Counted from the first letter of the stretch, positions 54,698 to 64,000 are shown. The stretch is DNA of 64,000 nucleotides from Methanosalsum zhilinae DSM 4017 (GCF_000217995.1 NC_015676.1:536103-600102), one strand, 5' to 3'. The notes: generated by a model not told the origin, from the letters alone. Program-made: numbers and translations.

Positions 54698-55063
54698 TCA
54701 GGGTATACGCTCCATGATCGCATCCATTCGGTTTGTTTCTTTATAAAAAAGAGTGGATAGCTTAAGAAAATTTGCCGCAATCAGTCCTTTGTTCGTTATT
54801 CTATATCCACCGTGCTTTACCTTGACCACAAGATCATTTCTCTGGAACACTACTTTCATTTTACTACCGATACTGCCCCTGTCCGCAAACTGATCAGTAT
54901 ATTTCCTGATATCAGAAAATTCTGTTATTTTGTCTTTATTTGATTCTAAGACTCTCAATATCAGCCTGTACTGGATGTCTCCCGGCCCCTGTCCTATTCC
55001 AAGAGACTGGTAATAATCAGCGACCTCTTTTTCAAACTGGGCATCAACTTTACCTGTCATCAT
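54698..55063 (-). CDS. small winged-helix-like protein upstream of trp genes
   Basis: A protein of about 121 residues with the look of a winged helix: helix-rich start (FEKEVADYYQSLG), then QYRLILRVLESNKDKITEF, a basic wing (VVKVKHGGYRITNKGL) and a C-terminal helix. A transcription factor is likely, but the family is not recognised. ATG 55063 (GGGGGG just upstream) or 55060 is the probable start rather than the longer frame to 55102. It lies 95 bases before trpC on the same strand, so it could regulate the trp genes; this is inferred only from position. Confidence 0.65.
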   Translation of the reverse strand: MMTGKVDAQFEKEVADYYQSLGIGQGPGDIQYRLILRVLESNKDKITEFSDIRKYTDQFADRGSIGSKMKVVFQRNDLVVKVKHGGYRITNKGLIAANFLKLSTLFYKETNRMDAIMERIP

Positions 55064-55448
55064 TAACCCCCCTGTGAGAACTGAACAATCTCTATTCTTC
55101 ACAGTCCCCGCTTTAATATTCTATTTCTTTTTCACATATTTCAAGGCTACTGTTTGCAACGATGCTTTTCATAGTTTAGAAGGCTGAGATCATAATTTTT
55201 TTCGAAGCAATAGTGTCATCTGATTGATATTTGCAAATAAACCGATACTTCATGAAAAAATACTTCATTTATAAAAACAGATATAAAGTAATCTTTTAAA
55301 ATAAAATTTAGATACATTTATATTGTAGTCTGTTTTATTTGTTGCATACTGTTAATAATTTCAAACCACAACCACATTTACACATGTTATAAAAAATGCT
55401 AATTCAATTAAATCGATTACATTTTTGAATTTAGGGAGATATTTTATA
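55064..55448. other. divergent promoter region, regulator / archaellin
   Basis: About 385 bases, very AT-rich, with no coding frame. For the archaellin side there are TATA-like elements at 55316-55324 (ATTTATATT) and 55387-55396 (TTATAAAAAA), and a GGGAGAT ribosome binding site at 55434-55440. The nearer TATA would give a leader of about 30 bases. Confidence 0.45.
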
Positions 55449-56492
55449 ATGAAAGCAAATCAGAAACTACAACTCAAAGGAGATGAACGTGCCCAGATTG
55501 GTATTGGCACCCTTATTATTTTCATCTCAATGGTTCTGGTAGCAGCAGTAGCGTCTGCTCTGCTGATAAAAACGTCAGGTATATTACAGCAAACGGCCTC
55601 ACAGACCGGCCAGGAAGCTACAAGAGAAGTATCATCTAATCTTCGAGTGGATCGGATTGAGGGTGAACGTGCTGCTTATCAAACTATTAGAATAAAATAT
55701 GATGAAGGTGAACAGATTGTTTTTGTTAATGAAACTACTGGAACAGAACAGGATAAGCCCAATATTAATTTAACAATTCCACGGGCCGGAATGGTTGAAT
55801 GGATATCCGAAATAGATAAAGACCTTAATATAACTTTTAATAATGTTCAGGGAATAACAGTAGATGCCTGGTATACTGATGGATTAGATGGTGGGATTCA
55901 AAATCTCCATGAAGATGAAGGCGGACTGATCATTCCTGCAGGATCTCATTTTGAATGTAGATTTGACAGGTCAACAAAAAACGATAGCTCTGATGGACAT
56001 GATCTATATGAGTTCTATATTGGAGGTAAGGGTCCAGGCCATATTAAGGTTGATGAAAAAACTGCGTTTGGGGATATCACTAAACTTCGTGTGTCTGTAT
56101 CATTGGGGCCAGGTAGTCAGGATGTAGATCTTTCCCAATTAATCATTTATCTCTCAGACGGCGCTAGAATGACCAGTGTTAGATATGATCATCTTGATGG
56201 TGGAGAATATTTCCACATACCAGACGGTGATTATTTCTCTGTGAGTCCGATAAGGATTAGAGATCGGAGTGAATTTAAGGCAACACAACCTGTTTTAAGG
56301 ACTGGTGATATAATGGAACTTGTAATTGACATGAGACATGTATTCCAAACACAGGATCCAGATTATCAGGGTATAGAACCCCGGTCTCAACTCTCATTCC
56401 AGATCAGACCAGAGGCTGGTTCTGTTGTGCCGTTTGAGATAAGTACTCCAGGTGCATATTTCGATAACAGGTATATTCTGTTGATGTACTGA
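55449..56492 (+). CDS. flaB: archaellin (archaeal flagellin)
   Basis: A 347-residue major filament protein. The N-terminus is a class III signal: a short charged leader ([15 protein letters not shown]) followed by the conserved hydrophobic helix [20 protein letters not shown], with prepilin-peptidase cleavage expected just before QIGIG. A coiled region [16 protein letters not shown]-like ([19 protein letters not shown]) follows, then a large beta-rich outer domain with several N-glycosylation sequons (NETTG, NLTIP, NITFN). At 347 residues it is longer than many archaellins. ATG 55449 has GGGAGAT upstream. A perfect 13-bp hairpin follows the stop. Confidence 0.94.
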
Positions 56493-56838
56493 ACTGCTTT
56501 ATTTTAGTTCGTATTTCCAATATACGAACTAAAAAAATATCTCCTTTTTTTAATATTCCTCATCTAAAATACACTTACATATTGCTCCAGAAAAATGTAA
56601 TTTCTTTTGATCCATTTGCATGTGGAAATAAGTTTCTGTTTATCTATGGTTATTTAATGAAAGCTTAAATGGAGATGTCAGGAAAGAGGTTCAAACTTAA
56701 TGAAGTAAATTAAATTAGTCTCTTTGATTACTAAGCTGGACTACAGTAATATTGCTACTTTCGGGTCATTTCAACGTTTCCAGACCACTTATTTAATATT
56801 TCAGAAGGTATCTATTATAGAGGAAGGAAGATTGTGCC
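56493..56838 (+). other. gap between archaellin and the first secreted gene
   Basis: About 345 bases. It holds the archaellin hairpin (56502-56534), then about 220 bases with no visible structure or frame, then a TATA-like TTATTTAATATT (about 56788-56799) and GAGGAAGG (56819-56826) before the next ATG. It implies separate transcription of archaellin and the downstream genes. Confidence 0.5.
56502..56534 (+). terminator. archaellin terminator hairpin
   Basis: TTTTAGTTCGTAT and ATACGAACTAAAA are perfect 13-base arms around the loop TTCCAAT, starting 10 bases after the stop and followed by a T tract (56545-56551). It would uncouple the abundant filament transcript from the genes behind it. Confidence 0.7.
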
Positions 56839-58080
56839 ATGACTTATAAAAAGCATATACTCTTGTTGATCCTTGTTGTTTACCTATTTATTATCTTTAT
56901 ATCAAATCCTGTATATGCAGATGAGACTGAATCTGAATGGGTTAAAGTTGATGATTTCAGGTTATACTGGGGAGACAGTATCAAATTAAATAATCATACA
57001 ATAGAAGCCATTGAGTTTTCTGAACCCAGAAAAAGATATTCTAATGAAGATTATGTTATGATCTACATAACAGATAATTCCAGGCAATGGAATGCAATTT
57101 TGTCCAGAAACAATACACAGATGGATAACAATATTGTACTGGATGAACGATTTAAAGTCAATGTAACTGAAATAGTCACAGGTTTTAATATTACCACGCC
57201 ATATGCTGAATTTGAATTCTATGAAAAGGAAGAAGATGAAGAAGATATTGAATTTATCATGGATTCCTGGATTAATTCAACTATAGATTTTGATGCATCA
57301 GCAGGCCATTCGGTACATTTAGATGAGCGAATTTATATCAATGTTGATGTTAATAACTTGAAGGACATCCACTTTGAAGATGTTAAGGTAATCTCTTCCT
57401 ATCCGGATAATTTTATTTATGATCCAGATAAGGATATTGAATGGAATTTTGAACTAAAACCCAATGGTAAGAATACATTCAGTTATTCTTTAAAGTCTCT
57501 GAAGCCAGGAGAATTTACTATTCCCGGCTTTGAATTGAGATTAACTCATCTGGGAGTGACCTATCGTAAATACACTGATGATTTTGATATTGAAATCTAT
57601 GGTCCTTATCTGGAAATTGATAAATCTTTATCTTCAGATAGTGCAGAAAAAGGAGATATCCTTGATGTCAGTGTCAGTATCAGAAATAAAGGAAATCGTG
57701 CAGCAAATGTGAAATTTAAAGACGAGATCCCTGACTTTTTCAAATATGTAGATGGAGATACCAGAATAAATAAAGTTCTTCAACCATCCGGTGAACACTC
57801 CATTCAATATTCAGTAGAAGTCATTGAGAGTGGTTCATTGGTTATCCCCTCAGCTGAGGTTTTGGCAACTGATACCCGAGGCATTGAATATTTGTTTATA
57901 TCCGAACGAATTGGACTTGAAGTATCTAATGGGGATAGGCCCTATATAGAGGATGATAATGGCGAATATGGACATTCAGATGTTCCTGATGAACCGACAG
58001 TTGCTTATCCGGATGAGGCTGAAAAATCCGGGTTTTTGAAAGAGTTTATTAGAATAATTAAAAGCAGGTTAAATCTTTAA
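56839..58080 (+). CDS. secreted beta-sandwich protein in the archaellum locus (paralogue 1)
   Basis: A 413-residue protein with a signal peptide (ILLLILVVYLFIIFISNPVYA). An N-terminal domain follows (WVKVDDFRLYWGDSIKLNNH...), then two repeats resembling COG1361/DUF11 beta sandwiches, about residues 150-250 (SAGHSVHLDERIYINVDVNN) and 255-365 (YLEIDKSLSSDSAEKGDIL). The tail is acidic and ends in a short basic helix without a membrane anchor. It contains several N-glycosylation sequons. It resembles the later gene at 60880 in domain order and motifs. Placement among archaellum genes suggests a cell-surface role with the archaellum or S-layer; this is inferred. Confidence 0.8.
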   Translation: MTYKKHILLLILVVYLFIIFISNPVYADETESEWVKVDDFRLYWGDSIKLNNHTIEAIEFSEPRKRYSNEDYVMIYITDNSRQWNAILSRNNTQMDNNIVLDERFKVNVTEIVTGFNITTPYAEFEFYEKEEDEEDIEFIMDSWINSTIDFDASAGHSVHLDERIYINVDVNNLKDIHFEDVKVISSYPDNFIYDPDKDIEWNFELKPNGKNTFSYSLKSLKPGEFTIPGFELRLTHLGVTYRKYTDDFDIEIYGPYLEIDKSLSSDSAEKGDILDVSVSIRNKGNRAANVKFKDEIPDFFKYVDGDTRINKVLQPSGEHSIQYSVEVIESGSLVIPSAEVLATDTRGIEYLFISERIGLEVSNGDRPYIEDDNGEYGHSDVPDEPTVAYPDEAEKSGFLKEFIRIIKSRLNL

Positions 58081-58194
58081 ATATTGCATCTATCAACATA
58101 ACATTTATATTAATCAAACATAGTTTTAAAATAATTAATATTAATTAAATTAAGATGTTCTCCCTATTTAATCAATAGTAGAGGTTTGTTTCCA

Positions 58195-60840
58195 ATGGTT
58201 AATTCATCAAACAATAATCACAAAAAAGGTTCATACGAAGACTATGATCAAAATCCAGATGAAGGACTACCCTGGGAGAATAAAGTTAATAAGGATCAAA
58301 GAAACGATAAGGCTATTTCATTAACAAATGCATTTGATGATATACCATTAGAGGAAGCACCACTGGAGTTTGGATCAAAAACAGTAGATAATTCAACTGA
58401 TGAAGATGTAGAATTGCCATCACCACCATTTTTAGATGATATACCTGACCTTTCCCAGATAAATGCAGAGGTCGAACCTGATATTCTGGAAAAGAAAGTT
58501 AAGGAAAGCGAATTTCAGCACTTTGAACATATAAGGTCTGATGCAGAATCTGCTATGATTTCTGAACTGGACAAAAATAAGTTCCCTGAGATTGATCCTG
58601 AAACTGCTCAATGGGCTGATAACCCGGGAGCAAAAGATGAGTTTGAGAATGTTTTCCAAATTGCCGATAATAATCCAGCGATGATCAATAAAAATGCTAA
58701 TTTTGAGGGCTTATCTGAGAATTCGGCTTTATCAGCTGGAAGGAAAGCAACTGATAAAGTTGATCCAAATGAGACCATTGCAAAAATCAAAGACAGATTA
58801 CTGAAAAATCATGAAAAATTACAGAGTCTCGATTATAATTATTCTCTGGATGAATCAGATGATGAATTAAAACCTGATACTGACAGGAATGAAGAGGCTG
58901 ATGATATTCTGGATATGGATTCTCCTAAACAGTATCATGAATCATTTAATAAGACATCAGAACAGGAAAGCAAGATGTTAAATAAGTCCAATGACTCTCT
59001 GGCCGGGAACGAAAAGGATGACATTTCTTTTCATAAAGTTCCAGATTCTGGAAGTATCAATCCGGAAAAATTGCCTGAAGATCCTGCTGATCAATATAAT
59101 AAGGCATTCATTGAAGCTATTGACTCATCTGGAAATAATCTGGACCAGAACCAATCTGAAACTAATAATAGTGCTACCAGGGGAACTTCAACATCACCTA
59201 ACCTGTTTCCAGGTGAACATTTTTCGGGTAATTTTAATGAAAAAAAGTCCCAATTCAATGAAGATAACCTTTTTCAACAGGACAGTAAGCAAAGTGGAGT
59301 AGCTGCTGGTTCAGCCGGAAAAATAGGTTCATTTTTCAAAAAGATTGTTAAGAGCATAAAAGGTGGGGGTAATCTTATTGAAAGAATGGATGAAATAAGC
59401 CTGGACCTGGCTTCAACCCGCAAGGATGATGATAAGCAGGATAGAGATCTGTCTGAATCTCTATTTGATGATGAACCTGATTTTTTCAACAGTCCATTCA
59501 GTCAGAAAAAGCCGGATAATAATGTGGCTGAAAATGTGGATTCTTATGTTCAAGCATCTGAAAAAACCGAGAATAGGCCAAAAAAAAGTCTCCTTGATGC
59601 TTCTTTAGATGATATCAGAAATGTGTACAATATTCCAGAAGAATCGATTTCAGATACTCAAATCCAGGCTTTTATCCAGGGAGCTAAGGAATTGATACCT
59701 GATATTGCCACAGAAGATATAAAACACGATAATATTTCGGAATCTGTTTCATCAATAAAATCTTGTAATTCTGATATATTTTCCAGTCCAGAGGGGTCCG
59801 TGGCTTTTGAGAATAAGTCATCTCTTGATGAAACGTCAGAAAGAAAGATGTCAGAAAGAGAGATTGATGAAATTAAACGGGAGATACAGGCTCTGTCTTC
59901 ATCCATATCATCCTTTGAAAATTTACCTGATAATCTTCGATCCTTCCAGGAAGATCTGATTTCAACAGTTGCCAGTGAAGTTGAGATTGCTAATAATAGA
60001 ACCGAAGAACTTGAAAATCAGCTGAGAAACCTGGTGAAAATGATAGAATCTTTTTCTATTGATCATAATAACACACAACAAAATATTTTGAATATGAAAA
60101 AAGAACTGGCTGATTATACTAATTCTTATAATGAGCTGGAGGGGGTAGTACACAACATAGAACTGGAAAATAAATCTAATTATGAAATGCTGAATGAAAA
60201 AGTATCAAAGATAGATCAACTTGACGGGATTGAATCAATTGTTCATGGTCTGGAGGCTAGTCAGGAAAATGTAAATGAGTCTCTGGAAGCAATCGGAACG
60301 AGCATATCTACATTACTCAATGACCTATCTGAAGTCCATAGCTTGAATGAACAACTCAGGTCCCAGGTTGAGAATGATATAACCACGGTTTACCAGGAAA
60401 TGGGGCAGCTAACCAGATATTTTGAAACTGAAATAAAAAAAATACGGGCAAGAAACTTATCTTCAGGTTCATCTTCAATGGAGCAGAATGTATATTTAAG
60501 TCATATCGAAAAAAATTCTGTAAATATCAAACTGTGCATGGAATGGCTTGAATTCTTGCTGGAAATTGTGGGGAAAAACAATATTCCGGACATATTATCC
60601 TATTATGTTGAATTGGGATGGATAAGTGAAGAAGTTCGCCTTGAACTTTTAAGATATGCAGATGGAATTAACTATTTTGCAGATGGAGTGACCTGGAAGC
60701 TTTCACCGGATGACCATGTAAAATCAATATGGTTCATTGAAAGACTGGCAGGATTGAATATCGACAAAAATATGCTTACCATCATTGACAGAGACGTTGC
60801 AAATATAAAGCAAGGTATAAGAATGCACAACTCATTTTGA
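58195..60840 (+). CDS. giant FlaD/FlaE-domain archaellum accessory protein
   Basis: An 881-residue protein. The first 560 or so residues are acidic, Asn/Asp/Ser-rich and probably disordered, with repeated short acidic-aromatic motifs (DDIPLEEAPLEFG, FLDDIPDLS, LFDDEPDFFNSPF) and one basic patch (GSFFKKIVKSIKGGGNLIER, near 380). Residues of about 560-760 form a coiled coil. The last 100 residues are a FlaD/E domain (PF04659): LEFLLEIVGKNNIPDILSYY, VELGWISEEVRLELLRYADG and DHVKSIWFIERLAGLNID. FlaD/E proteins are cytosolic parts of the motor that link to the chemotaxis adaptor. Usual members have about 150-500 residues. ATG 58195 follows AGAGG. Confidence 0.88.
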   Translation: MVNSSNNNHKKGSYEDYDQNPDEGLPWENKVNKDQRNDKAISLTNAFDDIPLEEAPLEFGSKTVDNSTDEDVELPSPPFLDDIPDLSQINAEVEPDILEKKVKESEFQHFEHIRSDAESAMISELDKNKFPEIDPETAQWADNPGAKDEFENVFQIADNNPAMINKNANFEGLSENSALSAGRKATDKVDPNETIAKIKDRLLKNHEKLQSLDYNYSLDESDDELKPDTDRNEEADDILDMDSPKQYHESFNKTSEQESKMLNKSNDSLAGNEKDDISFHKVPDSGSINPEKLPEDPADQYNKAFIEAIDSSGNNLDQNQSETNNSATRGTSTSPNLFPGEHFSGNFNEKKSQFNEDNLFQQDSKQSGVAAGSAGKIGSFFKKIVKSIKGGGNLIERMDEISLDLASTRKDDDKQDRDLSESLFDDEPDFFNSPFSQKKPDNNVAENVDSYVQASEKTENRPKKSLLDASLDDIRNVYNIPEESISDTQIQAFIQGAKELIPDIATEDIKHDNISESVSSIKSCNSDIFSSPEGSVAFENKSSLDETSERKMSEREIDEIKREIQALSSSISSFENLPDNLRSFQEDLISTVASEVEIANNRTEELENQLRNLVKMIESFSIDHNNTQQNILNMKKELADYTNSYNELEGVVHNIELENKSNYEMLNEKVSKIDQLDGIESIVHGLEASQENVNESLEAIGTSISTLLNDLSEVHSLNEQLRSQVENDITTVYQEMGQLTRYFETEIKKIRARNLSSGSSSMEQNVYLSHIEKNSVNIKLCMEWLEFLLEIVGKNNIPDILSYYVELGWISEEVRLELLRYADGINYFADGVTWKLSPDDHVKSIWFIERLAGLNIDKNMLTIIDRDVANIKQGIRMHNSF

Positions 60841-60879
60841 TGATAACATTTAAAACCTTTGTATACATTAATTCTCCTG

Positions 60880-62634
60880 ATGCATCTTAAATATGGGTTA
60901 ATCTTATTTTTGTTCATCATTATTGTGGCCGGTGTTACATCAACTGCTACGGCTAAAGACCACAAGTATGAAGAGATGTGGGTCTATTATGGGAATTTTG
61001 ATATAAATGTCAATGATAAAGTGAAGATTGAGGAGCACACTATAAGGGTTCATAGTATTGATGAAGATTCACCCTCCTCAATCCTGCTTCATTATAAAAA
61101 CGATATTTTTAAACAGGCTTATGTTGTTGATACTGAGCTAAACAATTATATTGTAATTGAAGGGGACTTAAAGGTTAAAATTGAAAGTATATCAAAGGAT
61201 TACCTATCAGTTGAGACTTCTGTGCGTACATTGGAACCTACATGGGTCCTACTGGATGAAAAAGATATGCGAATATCTGATAAAATGCAGCTAAATGACT
61301 TTTCAATAACACTTGATGATTCAACCGGTGATTCCTATCAATTTATAGTAGAATACCAGGACTCTTCTGAATATATTGATCTGAACTCCAATGATTCAAA
61401 AACCCTGTATAACGATTTTTTGATTGAAATCAGTAAAAAAGATTCTGAAAAAACAGTGAATGTAAAATTATATCAAAATCCCATCCCATCAATTGATCTG
61501 TATTTTGAAGGCCTAGAAAGATCCTATTCTCCAGGTGAAAATATTTTTTATGAACTTATCATTGAAAATACAGGTGATGTTCCACTAAGGAATATATGTG
61601 CCCAGATCAAAACGAATGGGGGTGATGAAAAATCCATTATGATTTCAACTCTGTTGCCATCTGAATCTTTTAAAGAAAAATTAAACATTGAAGCATCTTT
61701 TGAACCAGAAGGATATACAATAGATATTGAAGGTGAAGTTTTAGCTTATACTCATGATAGAAAGGAGCACCACAGTTCAGATTCTGTTTCTATAAATGTT
61801 CCTGGGTATATGAGTATTGCTAAGAGAGTTCAGCCATCAGAGACTACACTAGAGAATTCTGAATTTGAGGTAACTCTTGATATTAGTAATATGGCAAGTG
61901 ATGCAAAAAAGATTACTGTCATTGACCAGATACCTAACGGGTTCATACAAATGGATAATAGCGAAATGAAGTGGGATGTTGAAGTTGGTCCAGGGACCAC
62001 TAAAAACATAACTTATACTATATTATCCATGAATCCCGGTGATTATGATATGGGATCTGCTGCTATTGAATGGAGAGATGGTAATACAGATTATAGAGTA
62101 AAATCGAATAATCCAGGTGTAACGATCTACGGTGCAGATCTGGATGTTGACAGATATTTAAGTAAGGATGATATACACCTGGACGAATACCTAGATGTTA
62201 ACTTCAATATAATGAATAAAGGAAACGAAAATGCGTACGTCAAGATAAATGATACCGTTCCTGAGGACATGGAGCTGGTGTATGGAGATACTTCCTGGAA
62301 TGGTACTGTATCTGCAGGTGAAGAATATAAGTTTTCATATGTTCTAAAGCCTCTTAGTGCCGGTAAATTTGATATTTCATCACTGGAAATTCGCTATTCA
62401 GATGCCAGTGGCCATGAAAATACTATTTATTTACAGGAACTTGAGTTCAATGTAAATGATTATCAAAAAGAAGGCCAGATAAAATCTCCGGAGTCAGATC
62501 ATCCTGAATCTTTAGCATCTATTGGCCGATGGAATACAATAAGTTTTTTAACTTTATCGTTTATATTTCTTTTAGCTCTGATATCGATGGTACCGATTTG
62601 TGGATATATATTCATCAATGAAAGGAAAAAATAA
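60880..62634 (+). CDS. membrane-anchored beta-sandwich protein in the archaellum locus (paralogue 2)
   Basis: A 584-residue protein. It has a signal peptide (YGLILFLFIIIVAGVTSTATA), an N-terminal domain like that of the 56839 gene (MWVYYGNFDINVNDKVKIEE), then three or more beta-sandwich repeats, the last reading DLDVDRYLSKDDIHLDEYLD. One C-terminal membrane helix (FLTLSFIFLLALISMVPICG) ends in a short basic tail, so the bulk lies outside the cell. The repeats closely match its paralogue. No ribosome binding site is visible before ATG 60880, and a TATA-like CATTTAAAA lies 30 bases upstream, so the mRNA may be leaderless. Function unknown. Confidence 0.8.
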   Translation: MHLKYGLILFLFIIIVAGVTSTATAKDHKYEEMWVYYGNFDINVNDKVKIEEHTIRVHSIDEDSPSSILLHYKNDIFKQAYVVDTELNNYIVIEGDLKVKIESISKDYLSVETSVRTLEPTWVLLDEKDMRISDKMQLNDFSITLDDSTGDSYQFIVEYQDSSEYIDLNSNDSKTLYNDFLIEISKKDSEKTVNVKLYQNPIPSIDLYFEGLERSYSPGENIFYELIIENTGDVPLRNICAQIKTNGGDEKSIMISTLLPSESFKEKLNIEASFEPEGYTIDIEGEVLAYTHDRKEHHSSDSVSINVPGYMSIAKRVQPSETTLENSEFEVTLDISNMASDAKKITVIDQIPNGFIQMDNSEMKWDVEVGPGTTKNITYTILSMNPGDYDMGSAAIEWRDGNTDYRVKSNNPGVTIYGADLDVDRYLSKDDIHLDEYLDVNFNIMNKGNENAYVKINDTVPEDMELVYGDTSWNGTVSAGEEYKFSYVLKPLSAGKFDISSLEIRYSDASGHENTIYLQELEFNVNDYQKEGQIKSPESDHPESLASIGRWNTISFLTLSFIFLLALISMVPICGYIFINERKK

Positions 62635-62654
62635 AACCTCGCGGATTTGGAATC

Positions 62655-63077
62655 ATGGAAGCAATACTGGCATCAATTTTGATATTTGTTCTTTTTATTG
62701 CAGTTACACTACTGGTACTTATTAAGGTATCAACCATTTCAGCACTAATTGTCCTGTTCATTATACCAGTTATTATGGTTTTGATTTTTCCGGATACAAC
62801 ACTCAGTTTTCTCTCACATGAACTTATATTATTGCTAAGCGATCAGGTGCAATTAACCAATTTCCATATCCTGCTGTTTATATGGGCAGCGCTGATTTCA
62901 GTTATAACTTACACAGAGTTCATTACGTGGTACCTGAAAAGACAGGTGGCTGGATCAAAGCAGAAAGGCAGTGATAATCAGGGCTCTAAAAATTCCAGTG
63001 ATCATCTATCATTCAATTTAAATATAGACAGTGTCACTGATAGAATTAAAACTACCTATGAAAAGTATGTAAAATAA
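62655..63077 (+). CDS. small membrane protein in the archaellum locus
   Basis: A 140-residue protein with three predicted membrane helices (about 3-27, 30-48 and 66-92) and a hydrophilic, Ser/Asn-rich C-terminal tail (about 95-140) ending in an amphipathic segment (SVTDRIKTTYEKYVK). No family is recognised. It starts 20 bases after the anchored paralogue, so the two are likely cotranscribed and may form one complex. It does not look like FlaF, FlaG or FlaJ. Confidence 0.72.
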   Translation: MEAILASILIFVLFIAVTLLVLIKVSTISALIVLFIIPVIMVLIFPDTTLSFLSHELILLLSDQVQLTNFHILLFIWAALISVITYTEFITWYLKRQVAGSKQKGSDNQGSKNSSDHLSFNLNIDSVTDRIKTTYEKYVK

Positions 63078-63186
63078 TTTATTTAAATCAAATGAAAATA
63101 TATTTAACTGATATTTGTATAATCAGTATTTATCATAATTATAATTCTTATTTAATATATTACAACAATATTTTTGCAGTGGGACC

Positions 63187-64000
63187 ATGGTTAATCTGAA
63201 AGATAAATTAAGTTCATTGAAATCAATTGTCAGCAAAGACGATGCCTCATCATCACCATCACAATCTGCAAACAATGATCCATTTGGATCAGACACAGAT
63301 CCTTTTGCTTCAGGTCCTCCAGGATTTGATTCTGTGCCAGATCTAACAAATGGAGGTGGGGGTGCTCCAGATTTTGAAGGCTTACCGGACTTTAATCAAT
63401 TCCCACCATCAGCTCCTGGTGCTAATGGTTTTGGTGCTGAATCTTCAGGCACACCGGGTCAGCAGGCAAATAGTTCAAACCCCAAACAGGTTGAGGAAAA
63501 TAAGGATCGTATCAATTCTCTTGAAAAGAAGCTTTCCAAATTTGAAATGAGCTTCAATATGATGGAAAGGGAAAATAAGGAAATTAAAGAGACTGTAACC
63601 AAAATAGATCAGAGTGTAATTGAACTATTATCCCTATATGAGATTGTATCCAATCAGGTAAATCCGTTTGTTGGTGAAAATGAAAGTGGAAGAGACACTA
63701 TTGAGAGATTTGACAAGGCTGAGAAAAGAATAAATGAAGTTGGTGATATGACCGTCTCTCTTAAGAATGATGTAGCTTCTCTTCAAAACCAGCTGGAAAA
63801 TATGGGAATGACTCAGGATACTGAGGACAAAATTTCTGAGATAGAGGAAAAACTGGATGCCTTCTCTCAGGCTCTGGAAATGCTGAATGAGAATTTTGAA
63901 AACATCTCTTCCCAGCTGGACAGTTTCAATGAAAGGACTGAACAGAATGAAATAATCATTTCAGATCTCCAGGATGCCAATTCTGTTATCATCGAAAGAC
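63187..64000 (+). CDS. flaC: FlaC-like archaellum accessory protein (3' truncated)
   Basis: 271 codons before the window ends. A short amphipathic start (MVNLKDKLSSLKSIVSKDD) leads into a Pro/Gly/Phe-rich low-complexity segment with repeated acidic-aromatic motifs (NDPFGSDTDPFASG, PDFEGLPDFNQFP). A coiled coil comes next, then the FlaC signature DQSVIELLSLYEIVSNQVNP followed by FVG, then more coiled coil. FlaC works with FlaD/E at the cytosolic motor and joins it to chemotaxis signalling. ATG 63187 is preceded by GTGGG. The low-complexity part resembles that of the giant FlaD/E protein. Confidence 0.85.
   Translation, partial: MVNLKDKLSSLKSIVSKDDASSSPSQSANNDPFGSDTDPFASGPPGFDSVPDLTNGGGGAPDFEGLPDFNQFPPSAPGANGFGAESSGTPGQQANSSNPKQVEENKDRINSLEKKLSKFEMSFNMMERENKEIKETVTKIDQSVIELLSLYEIVSNQVNPFVGENESGRDTIERFDKAEKRINEVGDMTVSLKNDVASLQNQLENMGMTQDTEDKISEIEEKLDAFSQALEMLNENFENISSQLDSFNERTEQNEIIISDLQDANSVIIER

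Follow-up and report, generated by a model that had tools for sequence, protein, structure and literature searches.

The stretch of DNA analysed here (the window) comprises 64,000 nucleotides of the complete, 2,138,444-base genome of Methanosalsum zhilinae DSM 4017 (G000:C1:536103-600102). Near its end lies an archaellum (arl) locus in which two secreted proteins, P1 and P2, and a small membrane protein, TM140, are set among archaellum genes in the order archaellin – P1 – giant FlaD/E protein (E884) – P2 – TM140 – ArlCDE. All six genes were confirmed, and with them the claim of a preliminary description, made from the sequence alone, that this is not the standard order of an archaellum locus. 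The features, in window coordinates, are as follows.

55449..56492, plus strand: large archaellin, the first gene of the locus; 347 amino acids from ATG, with a class III signal (PF01917, E 3.6e-27).
56839..58080, plus strand: P1, a secreted protein of 413 amino acids with an N-terminal S-layer-like domain and two BatD/DUF11 sandwiches; no C-terminal anchor.
58186..60840, plus strand: E884, 884 amino acids, a long coiled coil with a C-terminal Arch_fla_DE domain (PF04659, E 2.4e-27).
60880..62634, plus strand: P2, 591 amino acids; signal peptide, two S-layer-like N-terminal domains, three immunoglobulin (Ig)-like domains and a C-terminal transmembrane helix.
62655..63077, plus strand: TM140, a membrane protein with three helices; its family is in neither Pfam nor NCBIfam.
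63187..64000, plus strand, continuing past the window to about 64452: fused ArlC-D/E of 421 amino acids (PF05377, E 7.5e-24).
54698..55102, minus strand: wH134, an open reading frame for a small winged-helix-like protein; relatives stand beside P2 in contigs L137 and L138; no Pfam match.

From P1 onward the intergenic gaps are about 20 to 109 bases, and gaps this short through ArlCDE make a single transcript possible. Past the window there are three opposite-strand genes, four further archaellins and two secreted proteins. The canonical core, arlCDE-G-F-H-I-J, occupies a separate chromosomal site at 1.78 Mb, and its ArlCDE copy is 61 % identical to that of the locus. Since the core carries both flaF and flaG, their replacement, which the preliminary description had raised as a question, is ruled out. 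Gene order is identical in Methanosalsum natronophilum (L044/L187), with protein identities of 34 to 66 % over the six genes (59 % for the archaellin). The core locus of that species has no ArlCDE beside ArlG; the one normal-size ArlCDE detected there belongs to the P1-P2-TM140 locus, which therefore likely belongs to a working archaellum and is not a spare.

P1 and P2 are secreted proteins of one design, as had been proposed: both have a Sec-type signal, a common N-terminal domain and BatD/DUF11 (COG1361-like) sandwiches. In hhalign comparisons the N-terminal regions of P1 and P2 matched at 91 and 95 %, and the two N-terminal domains of P2 matched each other at 98.7 %. The Pfam domains above cut-off were BatD in P1 (37 bits) and BatD and DUF11 in P2 (45 and 30.9 bits, respectively). 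An AlphaFold2 model of P2 (mean predicted local distance difference test score 88.9) starts with a signal helix, continues as a chain of beta domains and ends in a 34-residue helix, overall a predicted rod. P1, judged by reading, has no C-terminal membrane anchor, and the earlier picture of one anchored and one free paralogue holds.

Structural comparison with an S-layer protein yielded a match for P2. VIA-align superposed the stretch 34-129 of P2 on 3u2g, a DUF1608 structure from MA0829, which is an S-layer protein of Methanosarcina acetivorans, with Z 11.1, a root-mean-square deviation of 4.7 and 96 aligned residues. Against S-layer domains, hhalign gave 66 % for the first N-terminal domain of P2, 83 % for that of the COG1361-type protein C540, 16 % for that of P1 and 0.1-0.2 % for the Ig parts; the first three scores (33.0, 39.3 and 27.1) compare with maxima of 19.5, 24.5 and 19.3 in 60 column shuffles. 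The P2 match (E 5.5e-5) lay above all 60 shuffles. We conclude that the P2 N-terminal domain has the DUF1608 fold and remote homology to the second S-layer subdomain; the case for P1 is weak. No Pfam match to PF07752 (DUF1608) exceeded the curated cut-off in P1 or P2, and membership in that Pfam family was rejected; 17 matches to PF07752 occur elsewhere in the M. zhilinae genome. Neither Pfam nor NCBIfam gave a match in P1 or P2 to an archaellin-like N-terminus or domain (PF01917 or the ArlG model), and this places both proteins outside the ArlF/ArlG stator family. The last Ig domain of P2 aligned with TRAP-beta (VIA-align Z 14.7), and searching PDB sequences with the profile of P2 gave nothing beyond weak matches to generic Ig domains (E 0.011 at best). 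Foldseek matches of P2 to integrin and macroglobulin rods were dismissed as generic.

TM140, which the preliminary description had called a three-helix membrane protein, is modelled as just that, helices 2 and 3 being separated by a beta-hairpin. The hairpin is placed on the outer side, and basic residues following helix 3 suggest that the C-terminus is inside. The 43 members of its family matched no family in Pfam or NCBIfam beyond stray weak matches, and Foldseek found no fold match in the PDB. Comparison between genomes pairs TM140 with P2: the two genes are adjacent in nearly every locus that holds both, with TM140 downstream of P2 in nearly all examined.

P1, P2 and TM140 occur with the arl core across genomes. 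We searched 186 genomes of Methanosarcinales, an order of methanogenic and methane-oxidising archaea, with cut-offs of E below 1e-30 for TM140 and below 1e-15 for Arch_fla_DE; absence here means no match among the matches listed, and the metagenome-assembled genomes (MAGs) in the sample are incomplete. Both proteins were found in 92 genomes and neither in 79, while 13 had Arch_fla_DE only and two had TM140 only (Fisher's P 9e-36, a value that ignores kinship). The two TM140-only genomes are 57 % and 84 % complete, and no genome at least 90 % complete has TM140 without Arch_fla_DE. Within the family, P1 and Arch_fla_DE are shared by 57 genomes, with four discordant (one P1 only, three Arch_fla_DE only). 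ArlJ of the ArlCDE type is present in 33 of 60 relatives, and none of the ArlJ-less genomes among those 60 has TM140. Recorded phenotype does not sort the genomes in this way: the reviewed Methanohalophilus strains are all recorded as non-motile, including RSK, which keeps P2-TM140.

The set also decays with the archaellum. In genomes whose archaellum genes are missing or reduced to remnants, P1, P2 or TM140 are present as broken remnants, which we take solely as a sign of shared loss. Methanococcoides seepicolus (G118) lacks Arch_fla_DE, and no more than fragments of P2 and TM140 are left at their ancestral site; G126 holds a TM140 remnant. In G124, a 150-codon Arch_fla_DE frame and a 96-residue ArlJ piece accompany a P1 split by a frameshift, and in G009, which has an 80-residue ArlJ piece, two pieces of P1 lie between intact C540 and DHH genes. 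P1 is absent from five Methanosarcina-type genomes at exactly the site between C540 and the DHH gene, both of which they keep.

Neighbourhood with arl genes is seen in independent lineages: P2 or TM140 adjoins them in Methanosalsum, anaerobic methanotrophic archaea of group 2 (ANME-2), a fourth family, Methanoperedenaceae and Syntrophoarchaeum. Complete arl clusters occur on two ANME-2 contigs, L137 and L138, in company with seven-transmembrane-like and winged-helix-like genes, P2 and TM140; L137 has a P1-like gene as well. In G039, P2 stands end to end with ArlJ and TM140 lies elsewhere. At least eight contigs of Methanoperedenaceae have P2-TM140 within 10 kb of arlCDE, often adjoining it. 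In Syntrophoarchaeum, outside the order, TM140 lies beside ArlI-ArlJ, and among 393 genomes sampled from the phylum strong TM140 matches were confined to this lineage and the order itself.

In most Methanosarcinaceae, P1 and P2-TM140 are located away from arl genes. Two ABC-2 permeases precede P2-TM140 in Methanolobus and relatives, and in Methanococcoides, Methanohalobium and Methanohalophilus the pair is at other sites, with no arl genes nearby. P1 orthologues of archaellate Methanosarcinaceae lie between C540 and a DHH protein. The corresponding site in Methanosalsum (L074, L076) is without P1, which fits P1 having moved into the arl locus. In Methanolobus, a KaiC-like ATPase (KaiC247) and a small protein, K166, are found near P1. 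Relatives of KaiC247 lie near arlCDE in ANME-2 and Methanoperedenaceae loci, and K166 accompanies KaiC in Methanoperedenaceae; therefore even the home site of P1 has an arl connection. The loci concerned, for both arrangements together, are L224, L073, L137, L144 and L152. The preliminary description had held that a location mostly away from archaellum genes in relatives would count against its idea. For the Methanosarcinaceae that is literally what we find; the link to the archaellum nonetheless stands, given the order-wide co-occurrence, the parallel decay and the adjacency elsewhere.

Several neighbouring and related genes deserve mention. The wH134 family adjoins P2-TM140 in ANME-2 arl loci. 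A gene pair (window 54698-55102, minus strand, and L009:11729-12890, minus strand), one encoding a winged-helix-like protein and the other a membrane protein with seven helices, stands beside arl genes both here and on ANME-2 contigs; neither protein has a Pfam match, and the pair is a candidate for archaellum regulators. The secreted proteins that follow the four archaellins (L009:16592-18400, plus strand; 265 and 328 amino acids, the latter lipoprotein-like) are conserved in M. natronophilum. The core ArlI (G000:C1:1782737-1786234; L010:7738-11235, minus strand) has 1165 amino acids and is thus about 600 longer than in most relatives; its ATPase contains an intein-like insertion. ArlI proteins of similar size occur in one more MAG and in two further genomes of Methanosalsum. 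E884 has a paralogue in a second giant E-type protein at G000:C1:1591667 (327 bits). This Arch_fla_DE protein of 911 amino acids is the first in an operon with six pilin-like membrane proteins (DUF7287, DUF7288, DUF7266, DUF7289 and others; L107:4838-12319, minus strand, equal to G000:C1:1586837-1594318), and the order in Methanococcoides is similar.

Taken on these genome comparisons, P1, P2 and TM140 are very probably linked to the archaellum. We favor, at about even confidence, a reading in which they are accessory parts of the ArlCDE-type archaellum that form an archaellum-specific anchor between S-layer and membrane, an accessory stator or collar. Most likely the three would provide a static link of the archaellum to the envelope. 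Where the filament crosses the S-layer, the S-layer-like N-terminal domains of P2 (and P1) would be embedded in that layer or lie up against it, and the gap below would be bridged by the three Ig domains of P2. TM140 would be the partner of the C-terminal helix of P2 and may in turn make contact, on its cytoplasmic side, with the ring of ArlCDE or with the motor platform. So arranged, the set could steady the motor or fix its position, supplementing ArlF/ArlG. An anchored rod with an S-layer-like tip, together with a small membrane protein whose gene is often beside arlCDE, fits such a link from S-layer to motor. Tentatively, P2-TM140 and P1 might even amount to a second archaellum stator running from S-layer-like domains to the cytoplasmic ArlCDE ring, lineage-specific and absent from the Methanosarcina-type archaellum. 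The surface collar proposed in the preliminary description thus fares well as to archaellum membership, for which co-occurrence, parallel decay and adjacency speak, and its idea of holding within the S-layer gains from the P2 N-terminal domain. It does not extend to Methanosarcina-type genomes, in which the set is not found.

A number of observations weigh against an S-layer anchor for the archaellum. The S-layer likeness of P1 is weak by itself (16 %), the fold match of P2 has a high deviation (4.7), and Ig rods are generic. The co-occurrence counts ignore phylogeny. In Methanolobus, Methanococcoides, Methanohalophilus and ANME-2c the set is not beside arl genes, and four genomes (G046, G059, G029 and G018) have ArlJ and ArlCDE and lack TM140. 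The Methanohalophilus-like G125 is discordant, with TM140 intact, ArlJ a 50-residue scrap and P1 gone; this is an archaellum caught in decay. Methanosarcina-type genomes, including a 5.8-Mb genome taken as M. acetivorans, have no strong match to TM140 or P1, only distant ArlJ relatives, and no strong Arch_fla_DE matches. Methanosarcina thus lacks all three proteins, although M. acetivorans is archaellate (PMC8546582); the set therefore goes with archaella of the ArlCDE/ArlJ type, not with archaella in general.

The co-occurrence and decay data would also be accounted for if P2-TM140 and P1 were needed for the positioning, assembly or protection of the motor, or to make an opening in the S-layer through which the filament can pass, and were no part of a load-bearing stator. 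The S-layer-like domain suits such a role, as do the ABC-2 permeases that precede P2-TM140 in Methanolobus. We consider it possible, if doubtful: no permease was found in the M. zhilinae genome or in several archaellate genera, and a membrane-anchored rod better suits a lasting structural part. The operon-like order permease-permease-P2-TM140 in Methanolobus and relatives could also mean that P2 and TM140 are exporter subunits partnering the permeases. M. zhilinae, Methanococcoides, Methanohalobium and Methanohalophilus all keep P2-TM140 with no permease orthologue (E 1e-20), which rules out an ABC exporter subunit as the general role and makes this explanation extremely unlikely.

Location away from arl genes in most Methanosarcinaceae, and the generic nature of COG1361-type domains, would fit general S-layer or envelope proteins that are merely co-regulated with arl genes in Methanosalsum. 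Such proteins would not be expected to co-occur and decay with the archaellum across the order or to adjoin arl genes in several lineages, and their COG1361-type neighbor C540 persists when archaellum and P1 are gone; we regard this explanation as unlikely. An extracellular sensor feeding chemotaxis input to ArlCDE would explain why the set follows ArlCDE and why Methanosarcina-type genomes without strong Arch_fla_DE matches are also without the set. Pfam shows no signalling or ligand-binding domain in P1, P2 or TM140, and a sensor is distinctly unlikely.

The anchor that we favor has partial counterparts in known systems. Reviews place ArlF and ArlG between membrane and S-layer, and S-layer anchoring is an accepted model for these stator proteins (PMC12024892, PMC8667602). 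Like P1 and P2, ArlF/ArlG belong to the envelope beyond the membrane, and they are regarded as a tie between archaellum and S-layer (PMC12024892, PMC8667602). Unlike them, P1 and P2 are not archaellin-derived, pilin-like proteins: they have Sec-type signals, no archaellin domain and several Ig domains, and both sets occur in the same genome. P2 shares with MA0829 the 3u2g fold and a remote sequence match in its N-terminal domain, but S-layer proteins are tandem full DUF1608 (PF07752) domains, whereas P2 has two short copies and an Ig rod. In multihaem cytochromes of ANME-2/3, a DUF1608-related domain is likewise fused to another part and proposed to cross the S-layer (PMC9012536); their cargo is a haem domain and their function another. 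ArlCDE or ArlX is seen as a static ring, and which parts stand still is unsettled (PMC12024892, PMC8667602). The ArlX ring of Crenarchaeota is tethered to the membrane around the motor, and TM140 could serve ArlCDE likewise, although it is a separate three-helix protein with no known sequence relation to ArlX.

A 2016 census counted seven archaellum components (PMC4858521), and in the literature searched P1, P2 and TM140 are nowhere named as archaellum parts. Here a defined set of three proteins, one of them without a Pfam or NCBIfam family, tracks the motor of ArlCDE type across an entire order, ANME archaea included; the set has S-layer-like domains and provides named genes for study in Methanolobus or Methanococcoides. 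The division of the archaellum into turning and stationary parts was called perhaps the biggest question on rotation in a 2025 review (PMC12024892). If the set is a second stator, it would supply the static anchor that archaellum reviews list as unknown.

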